64,000 bases of DNA from Arthrobacter sp. efr-133-TYG-118. Its GTDB lineage: Bacteria > Actinomycetota > Actinomycetes > Actinomycetales > Micrococcaceae. Made by a program: the position numbers and the translations under genes. Shown piece by piece: positions 19,948-59,989 of the stretch; within the stretch, counting starts at the first letter, position 1, and every line of letters begins with the position of its first letter. Below the pieces are notes generated by a model. That model made no database searches, was not told the DNA's origin, and saw only the letters and a program-made list of their open reading frames with translations. The stretch is taken from assembly GCF_030209755.1 (NCBI RefSeq), contig NZ_JARVRH010000012.1, positions 248,001 to 312,000 on the forward strand. The letters run 5' to 3'.

Positions 19948-20532
19948 CTACAGTCCCCAGCGAAGAATGGCAGGCGTCCGCTTGTCCCATCCCAAGGTAC
20001 AAACTTTGGCTGTTCCCAGGACAAAGTGGCGTCCTTCCCTGGCATCCAATTCAAGCCAGCGGGCCGTGAGGATGCGGGAGAAATGGCCATGGGCGACAAT
20101 CAGGACGTTGTCCATTCCAGACTCGAGGACGCGGGCAATGATCTTGTCGGCACGGGCTGCCACAGAGTCGAGCGTCTCGCCGTTGGGAACGCCGTCAGTC
20201 CAGATGAGGTAGTCCGGGTTGTCTTTGCGGATGAGGTCCGAACTGATGCCTTCGTAGTCGCCGTAGTTCCACTCCACAGCGAGCGGTTCATGAACGGCGT
20301 CGGGGAAGCCCGCCAACTCCGCGGTACGCCGGGCTCGGCGCAGCGGCGATGTCAGGACCAGGTCGAAGTCGATGCCTTCCAAGATCTTGCGGGCTTCCAC
20401 GGCCTGCTGCTCGCCTTCCACCGTCAAGGGAAGGTCAGTCAAGCCGGTGTATTGGCCACTCTTGGACCATTCCGTCTCGCCGTGACGCATGATCCAGAGC
20501 TGTGGCCGGGAGGGCCTGGCTGCAGGGTTCAC
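19948..20532 (-). CDS. Histidine phosphatase family protein (phosphoglycerate mutase-like)
   Basis: 194 residues, GTG start. Catalytic RHGETEW motif near the N-terminus (nucleophile His17), the second active-site histidine in VAHGHFSR (about 150) and the paired arginine in TSPLRRARRTAEL. Members hydrolyse or transfer phosphate on small substrates; acid phosphatase or sugar phosphatase activity is as likely as mutase activity. The start directly abuts the stop of the cca gene (zero spacing), so the two are expected to be translated from one mRNA. Confidence 0.92.
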   Translation of the reverse strand: MNPAARPSRPQLWIMRHGETEWSKSGQYTGLTDLPLTVEGEQQAVEARKILEGIDFDLVLTSPLRRARRTAELAGFPDAVHEPLAVEWNYGDYEGISSDLIRKDNPDYLIWTDGVPNGETLDSVAARADKIIARVLESGMDNVLIVAHGHFSRILTARWLELDAREGRHFVLGTAKVCTLGWDKRTPAILRWGL

Positions 20533-27941: not shown

Positions 27942-28268
27942 ATGAGCAACGCTAAAAACGTTACCGACGCCAGTTTCAGCACCGACGTCCTGGCCGCCGA
28001 AAAGCCGGTCATCGTGGACTTCTGGGCAGAGTGGTGCGGCCCGTGCCGTAAGTTGGGTCCCATCCTCGACGAGATCTCGGTTGAATACGGAGACAAAGTT
28101 GACGTCGTCAAGCTGAATGTCGACGACAACCCGGCCATTGCCGCTGAATACGGCATCACGTCGATTCCGGCGGTTTACCTCTTCAGTGGGGGAGAAGTGA
28201 AGAGCACGGTTATCGGTGCCAAGCCGAAGCAGTTCTTCGAAAAGGAATTTGAATCCGTACTGTCCTAG
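27942..28268 (+). CDS. trxA: Thioredoxin
   Basis: 108 residues with the thioredoxin active site WCGPC (31-35), preceded by VIVDFWAE and followed by the cis-proline segment GITSIPAVYLF. Cytoplasmic disulfide reductase; substrate of TrxB encoded upstream. GAAAGGGAAAG precedes the ATG. Last gene of the operon, closed by the hairpin terminator at 28305. Confidence 0.97.
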   Translation: MSNAKNVTDASFSTDVLAAEKPVIVDFWAEWCGPCRKLGPILDEISVEYGDKVDVVKLNVDDNPAIAAEYGITSIPAVYLFSGGEVKSTVIGAKPKQFFEKEFESVLS

Positions 28269-28304
28269 GACGTCGGGCGCCCGTTTAGAGGTCGCTTCTG
28301 ATTC

Positions 28305-28347
28305 AGCCGGTGGTTTTCGCTCTTGAGCGAGGACCACCGGCTTTTTC
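28305..28347 (+). terminator. Rho-independent terminator of trxBA
   Basis: Outer arms AGCCGGTGG (28305-28313) and CCACCGGCT (28334-28342), inner arms TCGCTC and GAGCGA, followed by a T run. A textbook intrinsic terminator. Confidence 0.9.
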
Positions 28348-28607
28348 GTGCCTTGGGATACGCAGTCCTGGGTTCGTCGCCACGCAGCTCGGTGATGGTG
28401 GTGATTGCCGGAGGTATTGGTAGGCACAGCGAAGGGCTGCCGCTGGTTTCGCTTGGACCTTTTGTTTGTGAACTTTTTTCATATTCAAAATGACTAATTC
28501 TTCTTGATAACGGGCCTAGACAGGCGTGAGATATGTGGGCAACCGGAACCGGGCTGGGATCAGTGCAATTGCAGGCGGGCATGACTTGGAACACGGGTAG
28601 ATTCGAC

Positions 28608-28623
28608 TGTTTCACGTGAAACA
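28608..28623. promoter_or_regulatory. parS site 1
   Basis: Perfect 16-bp palindrome TGTTTCACGTGAAACA, identical to the canonical ParB-binding site of chromosomal partition systems; the symmetry extends one base further on each side. Confidence 0.93.
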
Positions 28624-28706
28624 GCGCTGGCCGGTAGTGGAATTCCCAGCAGATCGCGTCTTCGAAATCGGTGCCAGATGAGTTCTTGCGCGCTCAGCAA
28701 GTGCAC

Positions 28707-28722
28707 CGTTTCACGTGAAACA
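28707..28722. promoter_or_regulatory. parS site 2
   Basis: Core GTTTCACGTGAAAC intact; the first outer base is C instead of T. About 100 bp from site 1. Confidence 0.88.
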
Positions 28723-28806
28723 TGGCTACCCGCTCACCCGGTATCGAACTACACACTCGTGTTCGCATCAAATAGACCCGAACAGCGTGGAAACTGGCTG
28801 CTGCAC

Positions 28807-28822
28807 GGTTTCACGTGAAACC
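28807..28822. promoter_or_regulatory. parS site 3
   Basis: Core GTTTCACGTGAAAC with symmetric G/C outer bases. Sites 1-3 are spaced by 99 and 100 bp, close to regular. Confidence 0.88.
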
Positions 28823-29041
28823 TAAGTGGACACACGCCGGCGCACGGTTCGCGGGCACATGCGAAACTCCCGGTCGGTACTGATGCCGTACTGAACTCCG
28901 TACGGATTTCCGATCCACTGACTCCTGCGGGCGACGCCTCTTGCCGACGGCTTAGGGCGCCCTGGGTAGCGTAGGTGGCCGGCCTCAGGACATTCTTCGT
29001 TGTTAGTTAAGGGTGTCCCGCGCAAACTCATCAGTGCTCCA

Positions 29042-29057
29042 TGTTTCACGTGAAACA
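29042..29057. promoter_or_regulatory. parS site 4
   Basis: Perfect canonical 16-bp site TGTTTCACGTGAAACA. Confidence 0.93.
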
Positions 29058-30930
29058 CCGTGTCAGCCTGAAGATCATAATCATGTGCTCATGGGCCAAG
29101 ACTCGACTCGACCGGGCAACCAGCGTCCTTCACCACCGAGCACGGGCGGGCCATCGTGCGGAGGGTTCTGCACAGAATAGAACACGTCCCAGCTCTCGGG
29201 ATTCGGATTGTCGTGCAACGTTCCTAGAGATTGCTGCTGGATGACCTATTCACCGAGGCCCTCGCCTCCGCAAATAGATCGTTCAAAGACTGTCCAGGCC
29301 GCGACGACGGTGAGGCACAGCTGCGTCGTCGCGGCATGCGTTCACCTGGTCTGTTGAATAAGCATGTCTTGCAATTAATTTCAGTTGTTTCAAAATTAAC
29401 GGTCGAGATTCCGCGCTATGAAATCCAGTCAGTCATCCGTACAGGCACATCGGTAGTTTTCGGAGGTGGTTCGACACTTCGTGGCGGGACGGATCTGTAA
29501 GAGCCCACAGGCTGGATACTGATCGGGATGAGCCGCCGTTGCACTGCGGTTCGATACGGGCTCCGGGATCTGGCCCGGGCATCTTGACTCTTGCGGGCCG
29601 ACGCTGCGTCGATACATCTGTCCCAGTAGCCAGAGGAGAGCAACGATTGGCCTTCCCGCCGTCCACACCGGGTAGATTGCGATGTGGTCATGTCGGCTTC
29701 CTCACGCACGTTCGCAGGCCAACTCGGGTTGCCGGTCAGCAAAAGCGCCACTCAAGGAGCTCAAGTAGGCGCCTTCAGGTCGGCCCTTGGCATCAGAACG
29801 AACAACCATCGGTGACGCGGCGCGACGGCGCCAGTACTGCATCACCTCTGCACAGCAACGCCGGGAGGGTGGCCGGACATCATCACCTTCCAATTCCCTC
29901 AGGGCGGCCATTCGGAGACTGAATCGCAATTGAGGGTGGGGACAAGCTCCGGTCGGAGCGGTCAAGTTCTCAAATGCCGCGCGCGATAGCCAGGTCATGT
30001 TCGCAAACCGACAGGCGGCGCGGGTCCAAATTGACCCAGTTCACGCCTCATTGAACCCATCCACGCAGCCTTAGGCCGCAGTTCCCACGTGAGAATCTAG
30101 TCGGAGCCGGGTTCAAGACGGCGCTGGAGCAAGCCTGCACCGATGAGCGTGGCCCCAATCTCCAATCCTGGATCACGGCGCTGCGGCCGGCGCCGAGTTC
30201 GCTCCGATCGAGCTACTGCCCCGGACTTCGGCAGACCCGGTTCGTACCTCACACCTACTGACCTGGCGTCACGAAGCCAGTCACCTAGCAACGTTGGCCT
30301 CCCAGAACGATCATCCAGATGCGAATGAACCACGAGGGCCGAATCCAACACGAACATGCAGCCTCCAACAATCTTCCCGAGCTGCACCCTCCGTCACGGA
30401 CAATTGCTGGTACTGGAGGATTCGAACGCGGGAAAGGGGGGCGCGTGGGCGGTGTGAGGGCTTCGCGGTTTGCTCGGGAACTCAAGCGTACCCAAACGCA
30501 CCGGGAGACGAATTCGTATCCCCGAGGCGTGAGAACCCGATCATTCGCACGGCTGAACGTCGGACGGCGATTCCCATTGCAGAGTGTTCGCCCGGCCCGT
30601 GGGTCCCCGGCCCGCCCACGGTTCCCTACGGCTCGATGTACAAGTTCGGCGGGGCGCAGGCGGTCGCTGCTTCAATATCGATTGAAAGTGCAAGCCATTA
30701 CCACTGGCTTTGCGGACGGCACCCTGATCGCCGGCATACCCACGTTGTGAATGCACCATGCCGAAACAGACTAGCGTGCGGTCCCTTCGACAGAAGCACT
30801 GGAGCCATGTCGTCTCAACGGCTGATTCCCCCACAAGCGCGTATTGGTGTGCGTCGGCCAATCAGCAGCCTGCGACGCGCCCTTCCCTTCAGGCCCGAGA
30901 GAGTCCCGCGGGCAGCCTCGGGGCGGTCAC

Positions 30931-30946
30931 AGTTTCACGTGAAACA
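30931..30946. promoter_or_regulatory. parS site 5
   Basis: Core intact, A in place of T at the first outer position. Confidence 0.88.
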
Positions 30947-31083
30947 TGCCACGACCATGGGCCCAAACTCGTTCACTCTAGCCTCAGGAAGCATTAGGAG
31001 CCGCGACCTGCTGATTAGGATTCGGACACTAGTGCACAACATGGGACGGCCCTTCGACAGCAGTTGGATCGAGCCTGCGAAGG

Positions 31084-31139
31084 ATATCCACCGACCGGTC
31101 CAAAGTTATGCACATAGTTATCCACAGAGATATCCACCG
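31084..31139. other. DnaA-box module inside the parS region
   Basis: Four box-like 9-mers in 56 bp, all in the same orientation: ATATCCACC (31084-31092), TTATGCACA (31106-31114), the consensus TTATCCACA (31118-31126) and ATATCCACC (31130-31138). The last pair is spaced 12 bp, the same arrangement as at 31450-31470. Confidence 0.6.
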
Positions 31140-31323
31140 GGAAAACGAACCGGTCCTAGCACCTCCCCGCGCGTGGTAGGGACCGCCATCAGTGCGAACC
31201 AAAGTGCCGCTCAGCCTGTCACGCGAAATCAGGCTTACCTTGGGTAGGAAATCACCGCAAGAGGGCAGAAGCGGGCCAGAATCAGGCGAAAATTGGGTGA
31301 AAACGACCAGTTTGAAGACGACA

Positions 31324-31347
31324 GCTCTGTTTCACGTGAAACAGAGC
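31324..31347. promoter_or_regulatory. parS site 6, extended palindrome
   Basis: Canonical 16-bp site at 31328-31343 whose perfect symmetry continues four bases on each side (GCTC before, GAGC after), the longest parS palindrome in the window. It lies between the two DnaA-box modules. Confidence 0.93.
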
Positions 31348-31449
31348 CGTTGAAGGGCACAAACACCGCACGAGTACCGGCGCCGGCCGGATAGAGACTC
31401 GCAGAGTTCAGACCTCCAACGCCCCAGCCCGGAAGACTTATCAACAAAG

Positions 31450-31470
31450 TTATCCACAACGATATCCACC
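31450..31470. other. Second DnaA-box module in the parS region
   Basis: TTATCCACA (31450-31458), three bases, then ATATCCACC (31462-31470). Same box pair, order, orientation and 12-bp phasing as at 31118-31138, 332 bp away. Confidence 0.55.
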
Positions 31471-33250
31471 GACGCTCTCAGACTTTTCAACAGCGGTTCG
31501 TACCCGTCAAGCGGGTGGGAGCAGCGCCCTAGCAGAGCAAACTTGTTCTTCCGGCTACCGAAGTAACTCCCGTATCGAGCCTCGCTTTTGTACGTCCGCT
31601 CGCGTCCCGGACCGTCGATACTTCCAACAGGCGTTCTTGAAGTAGCGGCCGCGTAGTCCCAATGTTCCGCGGCTGACCAGCCTAGAGCCCGATCCGGGTG
31701 TACACCCACCTCCAAAATTCAGACACCGAAGTGAACTAACAGAACCTCGCCCAGCGAGCATGCGTGCAGCATGCCGTGGGTCCACCCCCGAGATTCGCCG
31801 GGGCACAGCATCCCGAGTCCATACGAAATCCACACACGCCACGGAGTGCCGCGCTCATTTCGCGCTTCCAACGAGTGGCTCGCCACTCAGCTTGTCCTGG
31901 AGCAATCAGATCGCACAGGCACGCGCGAACCAAAGAGCACTCGTACCAAGAACGCGGCCATACCGGAGAGGGTAGGACCGGTCTAAGCGCCAAGGATGAA
32001 CCTGGCATGATGACTGCGGGAGAGACTACTCTGCTTACAGCTTCATCCCAAACGATCACCGCGGCCGCTGCCACGTCTACAAATCATCCGTGCGACTATC
32101 GGGCTGGGCACGGGTAACGGCGCCAGAACCGACACCCCCACACCCACACCCCGAGCCGCTTCGGACTGCTGGGGGACTGCGATCACGTTGTGGCTGGAGC
32201 CGTTGGCACTACTGACCATTGATTCCCGAAGCCCAGCTGGGCTCTAGCCGAAACGATTAGCACCCCACGGGTTGGGGACGTTCACGAGCGATCTTTGGCG
32301 AGTCCCTGCATCTCGGATGTAACAACGCCGTCAGTCGATCGAACCTGCCCCAGGCTCACCAGTTCCGACGGAGATCCAAGGTGATCACGGAACGCTTTGG
32401 ACTGTGCCAATCTCATATTCAAGCCAACAGGGGAGCAGCATCCGAACGTCTGCCCCGACCTCACGCCGCAGATGTCAGCAGCCAAAGAGGCCTCAGCATC
32501 GCTCAGGTCCAAGCTCTGCAGTGGCAATCAATCGCAGTCCCAGGCACGCGCCAGCAACCAGGGCGAGCGATCAGCAACCACTCCACCTAACGCTTCATAG
32601 TCGCGGGTAGCTCCCGCCCCTACCTGTTCCCATCGGGCCGGCACCAGCTCCTGGCTATTCCGTGTGCCAGACGTCCAGAACACCACCCAACGCACGCTGC
32701 ACCAAGTCGTTCGGACCCGCTACCCCAGTGATCCTGAGCATCGGCCAGCACGGGACACAGGTAGACGACGGTTCGACCCGTCCCCACGCAGGACCCAATT
32801 CGTCAATAAGAAGACCCCGCGCACACCCTATCCCCAGCGTCCTGGCAGTCCGAGCAGGGATGCCTCCTGTCCTGTGCTGCATTCAGCGAGTTGGTCCTAA
32901 CGCCAAGGGTGCTCGGCCGGCCTGCCACGAGGGATCATGGTGGAAAATGGTGAGTTCGATGCACGGGAGGGAAAGGTGGCAAGGCATGGCCGAGCCCATC
33001 GCTACTACCTGGAACTCTCTTTCAGTATCTCCAACCGTAAATGCCGCATTTCTTGAGCGGCTTGATGGGCGGGGCCGAATGCCTGAGATCCCCCTCTAAG
33101 AACTAAGTGGACAGAAGCAGTCCGAGGAAGTGGCGGCTTCTGAGGCGTGTCGCTGAGCCGCGTCGCCAATCATTTACCACGTACTGCGAGTCAACTACCA
33201 AATATCGAAGCGCATGCTCTGAATCGATCCCGGCCCAGCCTGCAATCCTC

Positions 33251-33266
33251 GGTTTCACGTGAAACG
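33251..33266. promoter_or_regulatory. parS site 7
   Basis: Core GTTTCACGTGAAAC intact; both outer bases are G. Confidence 0.87.
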
Positions 33267-33373
33267 GCCCGAGCCGACTGTCTATCTCAACGTGACTGCC
33301 AGACCACCTGACAGACTGACTTGTTCAGGCGAAATCGAGATCAAGCCCGACGGGCACGCGCGGCCGCGCCGGC

Positions 33374-33389
33374 TGTTTCACGTGAAACA
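33374..33389. promoter_or_regulatory. parS site 8
   Basis: Perfect canonical 16-bp site TGTTTCACGTGAAACA. Confidence 0.93.
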
Positions 33390-33938
33390 TCTGCATCTCA
33401 ACGACGCGTAGGAGGCCCCGGCTCGCTTGGCCCAGCATGCTCGCACTGTTGCGCCGTCACCGGCTGAAGTTGAGTCCAAGCTATGGAACTGTGTGGGCGC
33501 AGAATGTAGGTTGAACGTTCTACAGAAGTTGCCCTAGCCCCGCCTGAGTCGGCACACACAAAAGAAGGGGATCGGAACTGATCCGGGCGCCCAAAAGCCG
33601 GATCGACCAAGGCCAGCAGATGCCTGTGTCGACAACGAAGAATCCGGCGGGACTCCCAGGTTCGACCGTAGGAGATCCAGCCGAACGTCAATTGAAGCCG
33701 AACGAACCCTGTTACTCACGTGAATCGCGAAGACATGTGCTCGCAAAGGAAGCTGGCAGCCGCAACCTAAGCTTAGGGGAACTCGACGTTGCCTGTCACT
33801 GAGGCATATTCCAGCCAGCTCGAACGGAAGCATTCGAGAGCACTCGAGTGATCTTTTGCGGAAGAGGGACCCAAATCGGCCCCCGCATCGGGCCAATGAG
33901 AAGCCAGCCTCCTATCTTCTTGCGCGCCAGTCCCTGTG

Positions 33939-33954
33939 CGTTTCACGTGAAACA
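33939..33954. promoter_or_regulatory. parS site 9
   Basis: Core intact, C at the first outer position. About 300 bp from the 3' end of parB. Confidence 0.88.
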
Positions 33955-34250
33955 CATAAGTGACAACACGTAGTGGAGCGGCTCGCCGCGACGGACACCT
34001 TAGGGGCAAGTGTCCAGGACTGCTGCACCCACAGCGGAAGGGCCTCAAACCGGCCGCGCCTTCAGCACAAACAAGTTACTCAAATAGCTACACTCAGCCA
34101 TCCACAGCCCGAGCGCACCCTAGTGGTGCTCACTCCACGATGAACATGGCAACAGCACCAACTGACTTCCGTACGCCCCTCGAGCAACCGTTAAATGAAA
34201 ATGGGGCCTGCCTCCTCAGAAGCAAACCCCAATTCCGTGAAATCGAGCGA

Positions 34251-35435
34251 CTAGCCTTCATCCCCGGGCGACAAAACATCCATGATGCGGTTCAGATCCT
34301 CAACGCTCGCAAACTCAATGCTGACTCGACCCTTTCGGGCACCCAGTGTGATCTTGACATTGGTGTCCAGCCGATCAGAAAGAGAAGACGCAAGGTAGTC
34401 TAGGCGCTCATGGCGCGCATTCGGGCGCGGGATGCTGTTCTTAGGCGGCACAGTAGGATCCTGGTACAACGCCACTGCTTCCTCAGTGGCCCGTACGGAC
34501 ATTCCTTCAGAGACAATCTTCTGCGCGAGACGCTCCATAGCGGCTGCGTCGGGAAGAGCGAGCAATGCACGAGCATGGCCGGCCGAGAGCACGCTGGCGG
34601 CAACGCGTCGTTGCACGAGGGGAGGGAGTTTGAGGAGGCGGAGGGTGTTGGACACCTGCGGCCGCGACCGTCCGATCCGATCGGCCAGCTGCTCGTGGGT
34701 AGTACCGAAGTCCTCCAGGAGCTGCTGGTAGGCAGCTGCTTCTTCCAGAGGGTTCAGTTGGCTGCGGTGGAGGTTCTCCAGCAAAGCATCGCGCAGGAGG
34801 TCGTCATCATTGGTGTCGCGAACAATCGCGGGAATGGTTTCGAGTCCGGCGGCCTGTACAGCCCTCCATCGTCGTTCACCCATCACCAGCTCGTACGGTT
34901 CTCCACCCTTTTCGGTTGAAGTACGTACAACAATCGGCTGGAGGACGCCTATTTCTTTGACGGAGTGAACCAGCTCCGCCATGTCGTCCTCGTCGAAGAC
35001 GCTGCGCGGTTGCTTGCGGTTGGGATGGATGTCCCCGACCGGGATTTCGGCGAAGCGCGCCCCGGGAACCTCGACCAGTTGGACCTCGGGCGATTCCGCG
35101 GGAAGCGACTCAGAAGAAGCGTCATCGGCAGCCTCGGCAGGCTCAGACGCGGCCTGCTTTTCATCGGCGGTGACCTTCGCAGCGGGCGACTTCGCAGCAG
35201 GAGCCTTTGCCGCCGTCGTACTCTTGGACGAAGAGCCTCGCGATGGCGAGCTCTTCGCTACCTCGGTCTCAGGCACTTCAAGAGCATCCACCGTCTCCGG
35301 GGTCTTGCGTGCCTCAGGGAAGAAGAGGTCCACAGGGCGGGACGTCGGAACGCCATTGCCCGATGCACCAGCCGAAGCGGAGCTGGGAATGAGAGCCCCA
35401 AGACCCCTACCCAGGCCTCGTCGCTTTTCGCTCAT
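34251..35435 (-). CDS. parB: Chromosome partition protein ParB
   Basis: 394 residues from the ATG at 35435, which has GGAGG 9 nt upstream; an in-frame start nine codons earlier lacks one. Begins with the ParB signature [16 protein letters not shown]. After an Ala/Ser/Glu-rich linker (about 30-120) comes the CTP-binding N-domain with the ENLHRS-type motif and GERRWRA, then the helix-turn-helix that reads parS ([19 protein letters not shown]), and a C-terminal dimerisation segment. Binds the ten parS sites in and beside this locus and partners with ParA encoded upstream. Confidence 0.96.
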
Positions 35436-35502
35436 TAGTATGTCCCTCCGGTGGAATGGCAAGAATAGGGCCCGCCAAGGATATTGCAGTGATTAAGGAA
35501 GT

Positions 35503-36564
35503 CTAGCGTTCGGCGATTTCCGCGGCGGCTTCCATGTAGGACAACGCGCCGCTGGATGACGGATCGTAGGTCATCACCGTCTGTTGGTAGCTCGGAGCTT
35601 CCGAGATGCGCACGGAGCGGGGAACCACGGCGCCGAGAACTTGCTCCGGGAAATGCTGCCGGACTTCGGAAGCCACCTGTGCGGCCAGGTTGGTGCGGCC
35701 GTCGTACATGGTGAGGAGTATGGTGGAAACGACCAGATCAGCATTGAGGTGCTTCTGGATCATTTCGATGTTCTTCAGGAGCTGGCTCAGGCCTTCCAAT
35801 GCGTAGTACTCACACTGGATCGGGATGAGTACCTCGCTGGCCGCGCAGAAGGCGTTGACCGTCAGCAGGCCCAGGCTGGGCGGGCAGTCGATGAAGATGA
35901 AGTCCAGGCGACCTTCACCGTTCTTTGCGCGTTCCTTCGAATACACATCGATGGCGCGGCGCAGGCGCTGCTCGCGTGCCACGAGGGAAACCAGTTCAAT
36001 TTCAGCGCCCGCCAGGTGAATGGTTGCCGGCGCGCAGATGAGATTGGGAATATCAGGGCAAGGAGCCACTACGTCACGCAGCGGGAGATCATTGATCAGC
36101 ACATCGTAGATACTGTCGACGTCGGCGTGGTGCTCAATGCCGAGAGCGGTGGATGCATTTCCCTGGGGATCGATGTCGATCACCAGGACATTGAGTCCAG
36201 CGGAAGCCAAAGCGGCCGCAATATTGACGGTCGTGGTGGTCTTTCCTACGCCGCCCTTTTGATTGGACACGGTAAATATCCGGGTCTTCTCGGGCTTGGG
36301 AAGCTCGCGTCCCAGCAGCCGTTCGCGACGTCGGGTCTCGTTGGCGAGCTGGCGCGCAATAGGGCTGGAGTCGTCGATGGAGTCCATGACGTTGTCGTGT
36401 CCGGCAATCAGGGTTTCACGTGAAACAGCGGCGTTCGCAACCGAATTCGTGCGCATCAGCGCAGATTCAAAGGACGCCGAGGGTGCAGCCATGGCCCGAG
36501 CCGACCCCAAGGAAATAAATGGCGGGATCCGCTGGGTGGAGGTTTCGCTACTGCCCACTGTCAC
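35503..36564 (-). CDS. parA: Chromosome partition ATPase ParA/Soj
   Basis: 353 residues from GTG at 36564. Deviant Walker A KGGVGKTT (103-110), DIDPQGNAST (Walker A') and the downstream FIDCPPSLGLL motif define a Walker-type partition ATPase that binds DNA and moves ParB-parS complexes. The 95-residue N-terminal extension is longer than in Soj; part of it (AVSRET, about 46-51) is encoded by a parS site. The start is uncertain: in-frame ATGs also lie at residues 25, 37 and 60, and no start has a strong SD. Confidence 0.94.
   Translation of the reverse strand: MTVGSSETSTQRIPPFISLGSARAMAAPSASFESALMRTNSVANAAVSRETLIAGHDNVMDSIDDSSPIARQLANETRRRERLLGRELPKPEKTRIFTVSNQKGGVGKTTTTVNIAAALASAGLNVLVIDIDPQGNASTALGIEHHADVDSIYDVLINDLPLRDVVAPCPDIPNLICAPATIHLAGAEIELVSLVAREQRLRRAIDVYSKERAKNGEGRLDFIFIDCPPSLGLLTVNAFCAASEVLIPIQCEYYALEGLSQLLKNIEMIQKHLNADLVVSTILLTMYDGRTNLAAQVASEVRQHFPEQVLGAVVPRSVRISEAPSYQQTVMTYDPSSSGALSYMEAAAEIAER
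36412..36427. promoter_or_regulatory. parS site 10, inside the parA coding sequence
   Basis: Core GTTTCACGTGAAAC in the 5' part of parA, read on the coding strand as codons for V-S-R-E-T. The only parS in the window located inside a gene. Confidence 0.9.
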
Positions 36565-41720: not shown

Positions 41721-42255
41721 CTCACTCCCTCGAGGTACTACATACCTTATTAACAGGCACATGTGGATAAGCCTGTGGATACTTAAGGGGACAAGCGCGG
41801 TTAATGGGCTTAAAACCCTTAAGCCGTCTGTGGATCGTTAAAAACGGCCCTGGGGGTTATCCACGTCCACACCCTGTTTAAAACCCCTGTCGCCCACATA
41901 TCGTGAACAGGGCTTAACCGCGGAACTGCGGGTCCAGGAGCGGTTATCCACAGTTTCCACAGGGGTTATTAACACTACTAATCCCAAAAAAATGAATTCC
42001 CTCAAATAACAATCTCCTTCCGCCCACCCAGCGACGCAGCCCGTAGCTGCTTCGAACCACAAGCCAGCAGGCCGGGGATGGGTTAATGCCCGAAGTTCCG
42101 GCTAAGCTGTCTGCATCGCGTCCATCCTTGGCGCTGCTTTGTAGTTCGCTCACTGCGGATCTTGCAGCTTTCGGGTTCCGGGCGCTGGATTTCGGGGCTC
42201 CTGGGGGAGTTTCCGGTGAAACACTGGCAGCAGTAATGAAAGGCGGCACCCTTCC
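41721..42255. other. oriC: dnaA-dnaN intergenic region
   Basis: 535 bp without ORF. DnaA boxes in both orientations: TGTGGATAA (41762-41770), TGTGGATAC (41774-41782), TGTGGATCG (41829-41837), TTATCCACG (41857-41865), TTATCCACA (41944-41952), and weaker ones. A distinctly AT-rich stretch (about 41963-42015) directly after the last perfect box is the likely unwinding element. Position and composition match actinobacterial oriC. Confidence 0.88.
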
Positions 42256-58125: not shown

Positions 58126-58186
58126 GCCCAGCCTAGAACTACGCGCTGAGTCCGTCAACACCCCGCAGATATGTTTTCCACAGGTG

Positions 58187-58523
58187 TTATCCACAATGTG
58201 CGTAACTTACAAGGGTGTAGTTCGATGTCGAATGGACTCTCAGGGGCGGGATGGCAGGGGCTGCGCTTTACTCTGGGGATTAACGTCCACATCTGTGGAT
58301 AACTTTTGCCCACACGCCTGTGGGTATGTGGATAAGAAGTGGATTATTCCGGGTCGTGTGGACAACCTCAAGGGTGGCAGCCGCGAGAGCGCGGTATCAA
58401 CAGAGTTATCAACATTGTTAATAACTCACATTGCTGTAGTTCGGTGTCCTTCCCTCCCTTTGAGGCCCGCCGTTCTGGGAGTTTTCCACTTTGTGGGCAC
58501 AGTTTTTCCCCAACTGTGGATAA
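58187..58523. other. DnaA-box cluster distal to oriC
   Basis: Within 337 bp: TTATCCACA (58187-58195), TGTGGATAA at 58294-58302, 58327-58335 and 58515-58523, plus TGTGGACAA (58357-58365) and TTATCAACA (58406-58414). Four perfect consensus boxes in both orientations, as many as in oriC itself. The whole interval 58030-58585 has no ORF with coding character; it separates the ArsR and xylulokinase genes, which point away from and toward it respectively. Confidence 0.75.
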
Positions 58524-58585
58524 CTTGTGGGTAGCTGCCTGTTGTTAAGTGTGTAACTACTGCGTCGACGGCCAGGAGGGCCTCG

Positions 58586-59989
58586 CTACGTAAGTTCAGC
58601 GCCATAGAGCACTGCAGCCGTGTTTCGGTGCCGCTCGCGTACTTCCATAGTCCATTCCGGGCGTTCGGCGGGATCGACAGCTTGCCGATTGGGAGGCGGC
58701 CAATCCGGCAGTTCGCCGGTCAAGGCCCATGCTGCTTGGCGGGCGGCTCCCAGTGCGGCATATTCCCGGGATTCCGGCCATGCTACGGTGCGTCCCGTGA
58801 GGTCGGCTACGGCTTGGCGAAGAGCCGCAGACCGCGATCCGCCGCCCACCAGAGTGACCCTTTCAATCTCAAGGCCGGCCCGGGATAAATCATCGATGGC
58901 ATCAGCGATCGCGCAGGCCAAGCCGAGTATGGCGGCGCGGGCGAGGTTTTGGGGCGTCATCGAGAACCTCGTGAGACCGATCAGTGCTCCTTGGGACGCT
59001 GGCAATAGCGGGGTACGTTCCCCGTCCAGGTATGGGAGGAAGCAGAGCCCTTGGGCATCAGGCGGCCCTAGGGACGCAAGTTCGTCGAGTTCGTCGAGGC
59101 TGAGGCCCAGCATGTGGGCCGCTGAGTTGAGAATTCTGGCGCCGTTGAGAGTGGCAACTATAGGTAGCTGGGCCCCTGCCGCGTCCGCCATGTCCGCAAC
59201 ATGGCCCGTCGCGTCAACCACGTGCAATGTATCGACCATGGACACCGTCATGCTAGTCCCGATTGACACGACGGCTTCACCGTGGGCGGTGCCAAGGCCA
59301 AGGGCAGCAGCGGCGTTGTCCCCGCACCCAGCCCCTACCACCACACCCCCGGAGGTAACGCCCGCACGTTCGCCCGGTCCCAAGACCCGGGGCACCAATA
59401 GCTGACGGCCGAAGGCAGCTTCCAAGATATCCGTCCTATATCCAGCTCCTGTCGAAGCCCAATACCCCGTTCCGGATGCGTCGGAGCGGTCTGTGGTTGG
59501 ATCTCCCTGCGCGCCAAGAAGCCGCCAGGTCAACCAATCGTGCGGGATAACCACGCGCTGTACTCGCTCCGCGATCTCCGGGGCAGTCCGAGCGAGCCAA
59601 CGGAGTTTCGATACGGGATGCGCAGCTGTAGGGATCATCCCCAGTTCCCTGGCCCACCAGTCCGGGCCGAACTCGTGGCGGAGCTCAAGGGCTGACGGGG
59701 TTGCACGCTGGTCGTTCCACAGGATTGCTTCTCTGACAGGCTCTTCGTTCGCTCCAAGGAAGATGGTGGAATGTTGCTGTGCGCTGATCGAAACGGCTTT
59801 GACTCCACTTAGCGCGGTGGCCCCGACGCCGGTGAAGGCATCCCACCAATGTCGGGGATCGACGGCGGTGCCGTCGGGGTGTGGGAGCGCGGTGGAAGTC
59901 CGGATCTCGCCCGTTGCCGCATCCACTGTGATGTATTTGCAGCTTTGCGTCGACGAGTCAACGCCGGCGACGAGGACTGGGCGCGGCAT
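58586..59989 (-). CDS. xylB: FGGY-family carbohydrate kinase, xylulokinase-like
   Basis: 467 residues. FGGY N-lobe with VAGVDSSTQSCK (phosphate loop, about 7-18), AILWNDQRATP, and the C-lobe with VSIGTSMTVS and VTLVGGGSRSAALRQAVADLTG. Phosphorylates a pentulose, most likely D-xylulose; ribulose or an alditol product is possible. Encoded beside a SorC regulator and a sugar ABC importer, one nucleotide after the regulator gene's end in the transcription direction. The regulator gene lies upstream and shares the transcript. Confidence 0.88.
   Translation of the reverse strand: MPRPVLVAGVDSSTQSCKYITVDAATGEIRTSTALPHPDGTAVDPRHWWDAFTGVGATALSGVKAVSISAQQHSTIFLGANEEPVREAILWNDQRATPSALELRHEFGPDWWARELGMIPTAAHPVSKLRWLARTAPEIAERVQRVVIPHDWLTWRLLGAQGDPTTDRSDASGTGYWASTGAGYRTDILEAAFGRQLLVPRVLGPGERAGVTSGGVVVGAGCGDNAAAALGLGTAHGEAVVSIGTSMTVSMVDTLHVVDATGHVADMADAAGAQLPIVATLNGARILNSAAHMLGLSLDELDELASLGPPDAQGLCFLPYLDGERTPLLPASQGALIGLTRFSMTPQNLARAAILGLACAIADAIDDLSRAGLEIERVTLVGGGSRSAALRQAVADLTGRTVAWPESREYAALGAARQAAWALTGELPDWPPPNRQAVDPAERPEWTMEVRERHRNTAAVLYGAELT

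Follow-up and report, generated by a model that had tools for sequence, protein, structure and literature searches.

A gene-free trxA–parB interval with conserved parS sites and DnaA-box arrays in Arthrobacter, a candidate extended centromere

The window analysed here is a 64,000-bp stretch of DNA from Arthrobacter sp. efr-133-TYG-118 (contig NZ_JARVRH010000012.1, positions 248,001 to 312,000), in which the convergent genes trxA and parB are separated by 5,982 bp that lack genes and carry nine parS sites and two arrays of DnaA boxes. Within the genus these sites are conserved, and the spacer between them varies freely. We propose, with a probability of about 65%, that the chromosomal ParABS partition system uses this interval as an extended gene-free centromere with a DnaA-responsive core, the anatomy being observed and the mechanism inferred. 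Bacterial centromeres are commonly viewed as a few short parS sites scattered among genes; if our reading is correct, a gene-free zone kept genus-wide, with a free spacer and frozen sites, would suggest that DNA context is part of the bacterial centromere.

The interval and its sites in the window

Nearly 6 kb of gene-free DNA beside parAB had been noticed in an earlier reading of the sequence (the original prediction), and this was confirmed, except that the interval begins directly after the trxA stop codon, at 28269, rather than at 28348. Its features, with the strand where one applies, are:

28269..34250: gene-free tail-to-tail trxA/parB interval, 5,982 bp; proposed extended centromere, where ParB would load and slide
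28608..28623: parS 1, exact 16-mer TGTTTCACGTGAAACA; exact 14-mer at the aligned place in 6/6 close relatives
28707..28722: parS 2; exact in 6/6 close relatives
28807..28822: parS 3; exact in 4/6 close relatives
29042..29057: parS 4; exact in 6/6 close relatives
30931..30946: parS 5; exact in 6/6 close relatives
31084..31138 (+): DnaA-box array A, ATATCCACC, then TTATGCACA, TTATCCACA and ATATCCACC at 12-bp pitch
31328..31343: parS 6, core element between both DnaA-box arrays; exact in 6/6 close relatives
31438..31470 (+): DnaA-box array B, TTATCAACA, TTATCCACA and ATATCCACC at 12-bp pitch
33251..33266: parS 7; exact in 6/6 close relatives
33374..33389: parS 8; exact in 2/6 close relatives
33939..33954: parS 9; exact in 5/6 close relatives
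36412..36427: parS 10, outside the interval, within the parA coding sequence

The whole genome contains 10 exact parS sites, all of them in the window. Nine lie in the interval, as had been predicted, with GTTTCACGTGAAAC cores starting at 28609, 28708, 28808, 29043, 30932, 31329, 33252, 33375 and 33940; the tenth core starts at 36413, in parA. The reversed parS pattern, used as a control, had 0 matches genome-wide. When up to 3 mismatches were allowed, the 16-mer matched 11 times in the window (9 times in the interval) against 0.20 expected. Successive spacings in the interval are 99, 100, 235, 1889, 397, 1923, 123 and 565 bp, in agreement with the prediction that sites 1–3 are spaced by 99 and 100 bp and others by up to about 2 kb. 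Consensus parS palindromes are thus found near oriC and adjoining parAB, as in a ParABS centromere. Two weaker sites were recorded elsewhere: the sole 1-mismatch parS core of the genome, off the oriC contig (G000:C10:38823-38836), and a parS-like palindrome with 3 mismatches (AGTTTCCGGTGAAACA) at window positions 42208-42223, in the dnaA-dnaN intergenic region.

Several scans indicated that the interval is free of genes. With a codon-bias model trained on 41 window open reading frames (ORFs), a set selected on length that may contain some spurious frames, the best segment in the interval scored 9.4 bits, compared with a median of 11.1 and a maximum of 16.4 bits in 100 shuffles; the 15 training ORFs for which scores were printed reached 28–436 bits. 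ORFs of at least 100 aa number 10 in the interval and 12.5 in shuffles, and the longest, at 317 aa, is above the 95% shuffle point (285) and under the shuffle maximum (378). The 10 long stop-to-stop frames had no match in Pfam or PHROGs, and neither Rfam families nor tRNAs were found in positions 20000–44000. Hidden genes and pseudogenes were rejected on these grounds, and the earlier statement that no gene remnant is recognisable holds.

The interval showed no plasmid or phage similarity and could not be classed as a mobile element or a relic of one. A second copy in the genome was likewise rejected, the sole match being a 30-bp opposite-strand stretch at the central parS, which is a palindrome. 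Only the parS and DnaA-box repeat families reach at least 4 copies, which speaks against repeat-driven expansion and agrees with the prediction that the interval is not simply repetitive; some two- and three-copy families look like chance. Its unusual length was also upheld within its own genome. By gene finder it measures 5,823 bp and is the largest of 194 gaps in 464 kb, a sample made up of contiguous stretches rather than a random draw; the next largest gaps are 1,396 and 746 bp, and the largest of the 56 other tail-to-tail gaps is 554 bp.

Conservation within and beyond the genus

To follow the interval across the genus, 121 genomes were drawn for ParB and TrxA, of which 115, including the window, had the two genes on a single contig and were read throughout. 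Six were left out (G014, G061, G072, G080, G117 and G118) because trxA and parB lay on different contigs or parB had no match. Statistics on k-mers, spacing and promoters cover 111 intervals, four intervals longer than 7.8 kb with inserts being excluded, and the AT test covers 108. A separate set of named loci (L031-L110) overlaps partly with the genus genomes and was not added to the 115. Two of the loci read have disrupted flanking genes, perhaps through sequence errors: L029 (G107), with one in-frame stop in parB, and L224 (G053, 79% complete), with parB in two matches and a stop in trxA.

Interval length ranges from 3,695 to 16,392 bp with a median of 5,467 bp, and 111/115 intervals fall in 3.6-7.7 kb. 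Exact parS sites per interval number 5 in 3 genomes, 6 in 7, 7 in 24, 8 in 44, 9 in 28, 10 in 8 and 11 in one. In 40 of 41 genus genomes, those with a measured interval, 311 of the 353 exact genomic parS sites (88%) are inside it, and one site lies outside in 38 genomes and two in the other 2. Across 111 intervals the sites span a median of 0.88 of the interval. Even spacing of parS was not apparent, as the largest gap is just mildly below the uniform expectation (mean quantile 0.33 vs 0.5 expected; 111 intervals).

At a threshold of 22 bits no coding signal was detected in 106/115 intervals; shuffles were positive in 0/345 cases and the parB control was recovered in 113/115. The nine intervals with coding-like segments of at least 22 bits include three whose inserts encode transposition proteins, L117 (IS110-type and IS3-like), L118 (IS3-like, falling between the two array places) and L129 (IS21-like), as well as L143, with a phage-type integrase, and L183, with a larger insert of several genes. 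L133, L153, L167 and L213 have one weak coding-like segment each (25-35 bits). Relatives with genes in the interval had been named in the original prediction as the case that would count against it, and they make up only this minority.

Alignment with six close relatives (L111-L116) separates sites from spacer. The parS 14-mers have an identity of 0.88-0.99 and the DnaA arrays 0.76-0.91. Outside these motifs identity is 0.46-0.745, the lower values of which approach alignment noise, vs 0.66-0.81 at the four-fold sites of trxA and parB. Just 2 of 5,577 non-parS 14-mers are kept in at least 5/6 relatives, one at the start of array B and the other 11 bp past its end. The most conserved 100-bp bin wholly inside the interval is 31401-31500, with 0.50 of columns identical in all seven sequences, and the trxA-side edge bin reaches 0.47. 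These comparisons show that the spacer is close to unconstrained, evolving about as fast as, or faster than, the flanking four-fold sites, and that selection preserves the parS sites and the central pair of DnaA-box arrays. Such selection on parS across relatives (0.88-0.99 vs 0.46-0.745 in the spacer) is what a ParABS centromere would display. Imperfect parS-like sites (92 vs 18.5 expected) and half-sites (117 vs 60) are in excess, which fits sites being born and decaying. The comparison across relatives suggested with the original prediction therefore yielded a long zone, its parS content and a diverged spacer, and no tight conservation of length.

The DnaA-box arrays, which the original prediction had overlooked, proved to be a conserved element of the zone alongside the parS sites. 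Counts of k-mers singled out TTATCCACA, which is present in 110/111 intervals with 241 copies vs 2 in one shuffle set, and 248/248 exact boxes in the 115 intervals are on the strand that reads in the trxA-to-parB direction. Two box clusters (near-boxes included; raw count) are found in 112/115 intervals at an inner distance of 299-388 bp (median 341.5), and a 12-bp pitch between boxes is frequent within them; in the window the exact box of array B follows that of array A at a distance of 332 bp. The exceptions are L113, L127 and L118, where the insert splits the layout. By a set rule, a parS site stands between the boxes in 90/115 intervals, at a median relative position of 0.53 of the interval (range 0.10-0.65). 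The anatomy is what a DnaA-controlled centromere would show in that conserved DnaA boxes lie within the proposed centromere.

A second oriC at the arrays was considered and rejected. Across 108 intervals, the highest AT content of any 40-mer lying no more than 150 bp from the arrays has a median of 0.60 and a maximum of 0.70, and in just 1/108 does this 40-mer exceed 95% of random stretches of equal size drawn from its own interval. One of the six most AT-rich 40-mers falls between the arrays in 2/6 listed loci, L140 (0.68) and L122 (0.62). Unlike at an origin, the AT content of the core does not exceed that of the remaining interval.

Outside the genus, distribution was read against a quick ParB tree comprising the window and 71 named loci (72 in total), with support from the Shimodaira-Hasegawa-like approximate likelihood ratio test (SH-aLRT) only and 26/69 inner branches open; 9/80 named loci were skipped, as either trxA or parB was missing. 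Long parS-bearing intervals occur throughout the Micrococcaceae-like half of the tree, and also in Glutamicibacter, A. koreensis and Tersicoccus. In none of the 24 outgroup rows, from Cellulomonas and similar taxa, does the interval contain a parS, and strong coding segments are present in all 15 outgroup intervals longer than 1.5 kb; the Cellulomonas interval (L080) has two. Intervals with at least two DnaA-box matches occur only within a supported 27-row set made up of Arthrobacter sensu lato and Sinomonas, in 24/27 rows. Sinomonas L046 has two similar box clusters, and L052, in the same set, has a 3,150-bp interval without boxes. Gene-free parS zones without arrays were identified in Glutamicibacter L073 and, with a locus-trained model, in L060 and L070. 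The exact parS-to-box spacing pattern was matched in 2/296 phylum-level genomes (2/2 of the same genus, 0/294 others) and in 5/120 family-level genomes (4/6 and 1/114), counts that are lower bounds because the pattern misses other spacings.

In Psychromicrobium L061 and L059, placed weakly within the 27-row set, the intervals measure just 57 and 93 bp and hold one parS each, and 3 and 2 further parS sites, respectively, lie elsewhere in the 21-kb loci. The zone was likely lost in this lineage, although its weak placement leaves the loss unproven. In A. koreensis L058, a peptidoglycan-binding/amidase gene stands next to trxA (interval positions 10-1197) and is followed by a gene-free parS zone. 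A relative of this gene that is 95% identical occurs in the A. gandavensis genome (L057), and a search at E 1e-10 found relatives in 0/31 genus genomes and in 2/2 control genomes. According to a locus-trained model, the gene-free parS zone beside the intact amidase gene is 2.8 kb long in A. koreensis and 3.6 kb in A. gandavensis.

Interpretation and alternative explanations

We suggest that ParB would load as a cytidine triphosphate (CTP) clamp at the parS sites and that the clamps would slide across several kb of DNA transcribed by no gene, a zone that the terminators of the two convergent flanking genes could insulate. A compact partition complex might then form and recruit ParA and SMC next to oriC. 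With less assurance, DnaA may bind the two co-oriented arrays by the central parS and signal the replication state to the centromere or, alternatively, DnaA may be titrated at the arrays just after oriC is copied. Caulobacter parS offers a precedent, as the relevant passage of PMC6399470 describes DnaA binding parS and enabling partitioning even when its level is insufficient for initiation (Mera 2014). Sliding ParB clamps are reported to be halted by roadblocks in vitro, and recruitment in trans can bypass them, in the cited part of PMC9242446.

Several observations weigh against this proposal. According to the same part of PMC9242446, in vivo ParB profiles elsewhere are little affected by genes; because of this, and because recruitment in trans bypasses roadblocks, a zone without genes is plausible without being necessary. 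A passage of PMC7614844 reports that, in B. subtilis, ParA controls DnaA regardless of where parS is located. A few relatives accommodate transposases, an integrase and larger gene inserts in the interval, and the zone is dispensable, as Psychromicrobium, inside the array-bearing set, is nearly without it. No parS lies between the arrays in 25/115 intervals, 17 of which have one within 100 bp past the second cluster. Length drifts: among close relatives compared as 22 disjoint pairs, net change through indels exceeds the random-sign prediction, with a mean z2 of 3.04 that low-identity alignment may inflate, and stabilising selection on length was not found. The earlier notion of an expanded centromere-like loading zone is accordingly favoured by the persistence of zone and parS in the 115 intervals with a diverging spacer, and not by tight length.

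There is also no sign of special transcriptional silence. In the window 0 sigma-70-like promoters were found vs 1.4 expected, and across 111 intervals promoter-like pairs number 172 vs 293 expected under a second-order model and 316 under a first-order model. The second-order ratio of 0.59 is under all 30 permuted motif pairs (lowest 0.64), and the first-order ratio of 0.54 is near the lowest (0.55). The observed/expected ratio of TANNAT is, however, 0.41 in the rest of the genome vs 0.50 in the zone. Depletion of promoter-like motifs is genome-wide, and zone-specific selection against transcription was rejected; we therefore withdrew the depletion as specific evidence, because the genome sample is equally depleted.

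A more ambitious form of the proposal, which we regard as possible but would not favour, is a "regional centromere": a multi-kb element, free in sequence, in which the gene-free state itself would be selected and a DnaA-gated core with two directional arrays would license partitioning by replication state. Such an element would be specific to the lineage of Arthrobacter sensu lato and Sinomonas and convergent with Caulobacter.

The strongest competing explanation, although an unlikely one, is that the interval is a passive remnant. Ancestral genes would have been lost and the leftover kept since scattered parS sites and DnaA boxes make large deletions harmful, with no role for the spacer. An unconstrained spacer and a length that drifts between close relatives are as this account would have them, and other lineages do have genes in the same interval (the amidase gene of A. 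koreensis L058, for which no relative was found in the 31 genus genomes and one was in each of the two controls, and the coding segments of Cellulomonas L080). However, no coding remnant was detected, so that the codon-bias, Pfam and PHROGs scans lend no support to the decayed region that the original prediction had offered as its alternative. The 1.9-kb gap between parS 4 and 5 has no 14-mer kept in at least 5/6 relatives, so deletions there should cost no site, yet none of the 115 intervals is shorter than 3.7 kb. The coexistence of zone and intact amidase gene in A. koreensis and A. gandavensis means that the former is not just what the latter left behind.

It is improbable that the DnaA arrays are the main function, as a titration or regulatory site of the datA type, with parS sites as mere neighbours that also need proximity to oriC. 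Exact boxes in 110/111 intervals, two clusters in 112/115 and the clustering of DnaA boxes elsewhere near oriC in the same genome would all be expected of such a site, and the cited part of PMC12371093 describes an enrichment of E. coli boxes near oriC that favours titration. The arrays are nevertheless partnered with parS, which lies between them in 90/115 intervals and, in a further 17, no more than 100 bp past them; their exact boxes keep a single orientation (248/248); gene-free parS zones exist without arrays in Glutamicibacter L073, L060 and L070; and a small array would presumably not require 5 kb of gene-free DNA. It is scarcely credible that an unrecognised long non-coding RNA or a set of very rapidly evolving small proteins is encoded here, given the lack of an Rfam match, a coding score under that of shuffles, the near absence of conservation except at parS, in the DnaA arrays and at the gene edges, and 0 sigma-70-like promoters vs 1.4 expected.

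The proposed extended centromere shares with ParABS systems of the Spo0J-type ParB and 16-bp parS class a ParA, a ParB and a cluster of consensus parS sites by parAB, near oriC. It differs in that 88% of exact parS sites (40 genus genomes) are gathered in one mostly gene-free multi-kb interval; to our knowledge, ParABS systems are not defined by a zone of this kind.

A comparable cluster is known from another actinobacterium, Corynebacterium glutamicum, in which ten parS sites form one cluster over 35 kb, 73 kb from oriC, nine of them intergenic, and ParB and SMC loading at the cluster have been demonstrated (PMC7083940). There, by contrast, the sites are spread over several intergenic regions and one gene, and the cited part of that paper mentions neither a gene-free zone nor DnaA arrays. 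Myxococcus xanthus also has a dense cluster near parA, of 22 parS sites within 3 kb and ~4 kb upstream of the gene, but these are tight repeats of another consensus, and the passages cited from PMC3899335 and PMC3778016 make no mention of DnaA boxes or a conserved long spacer. With Caulobacter the likeness lies in DnaA boxes at the centromere, where DnaA affects partitioning apart from replication (passage in PMC6399470); that lineage is unrelated, and here the predicted DnaA sites form two tandem co-oriented arrays by one parS in a gene-free zone. Regions such as datA and those proposed for titration in E. coli similarly accumulate DnaA boxes near oriC (PMC12371093, in part) but have no link to parS, which E. 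coli exceptionally lacks according to the cited part of PMC7083940.

Among the matches listed in full-text searches of openly licensed papers (Arthrobacter or Micrococcales parS, gene-free parS zones, Arthrobacter oriC DnaA boxes), none describes the zone in its title or abstract. Natural variants of the zone, whether long, short, interrupted by inserts or nearly absent as in Psychromicrobium, provide a ready comparative test, and the inserts of L117, L118, L129, L143 and L183 could be used to test insert effects on ParB spreading. With conserved DnaA arrays by a central parS, the long-standing question of the coupling between replication initiation and origin segregation becomes directly testable in bacteria known mainly from soil.

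Flanking genes and other nearby features

The following features flank the interval or lie near it:

27942..28268 (+): trxA (thioredoxin), left flank; family model above its curated cut-off
28305..28342 (+): terminator-like hairpin after trxA, 17 pairs and a T tail
34202..34231 (-): terminator-like hairpin after parB, 13 pairs and a T tail
34251..35462 (-): parB, right flank; family model above its curated cut-off
35503..36564 (-): parA (ParA-type ATPase); NCBIfam partition matches below cut-off, and place beside parB
41721..42255: dnaA-dnaN intergenic region, probable oriC, with DnaA boxes in both orientations

In family-model searches trxB, trxA, parB, rsmG, yidC, dnaA and dnaN scored above the curated cut-offs of the matching families; jag and parA scored below and were recognised with the help of position. 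Since trxA and parB are convergent, neither needs a promoter within the interval. A terminator scan of the whole window gave 9 terminator-like sites vs 5.5 in shuffles. The interval does adjoin parB, as predicted, but its distance from the dnaA-dnaN intergenic region runs from about 7.5 kb (near edge) to 13.5 kb (far edge), so that "within 12 kb of oriC" is not exact. The closest named locus is that of Arthrobacter sp. MA-N2 (ParB identity 91%).

DnaA boxes also cluster elsewhere on this contig, where 14/31 exact genomic boxes fall at 232-319 kb. Three exact boxes lie within 450 bp at G000:C33:232669-233114, about 15 kb to the left of the window, where the gene finder leaves a 474-bp gap. A cluster at 58160-58530, a datA-like candidate ~16 kb from oriC, has four exact TTATCCACA boxes in both orientations together with near-boxes and adjoins a sugar-kinase-like ORF (58586-59989, minus strand; named by eye).

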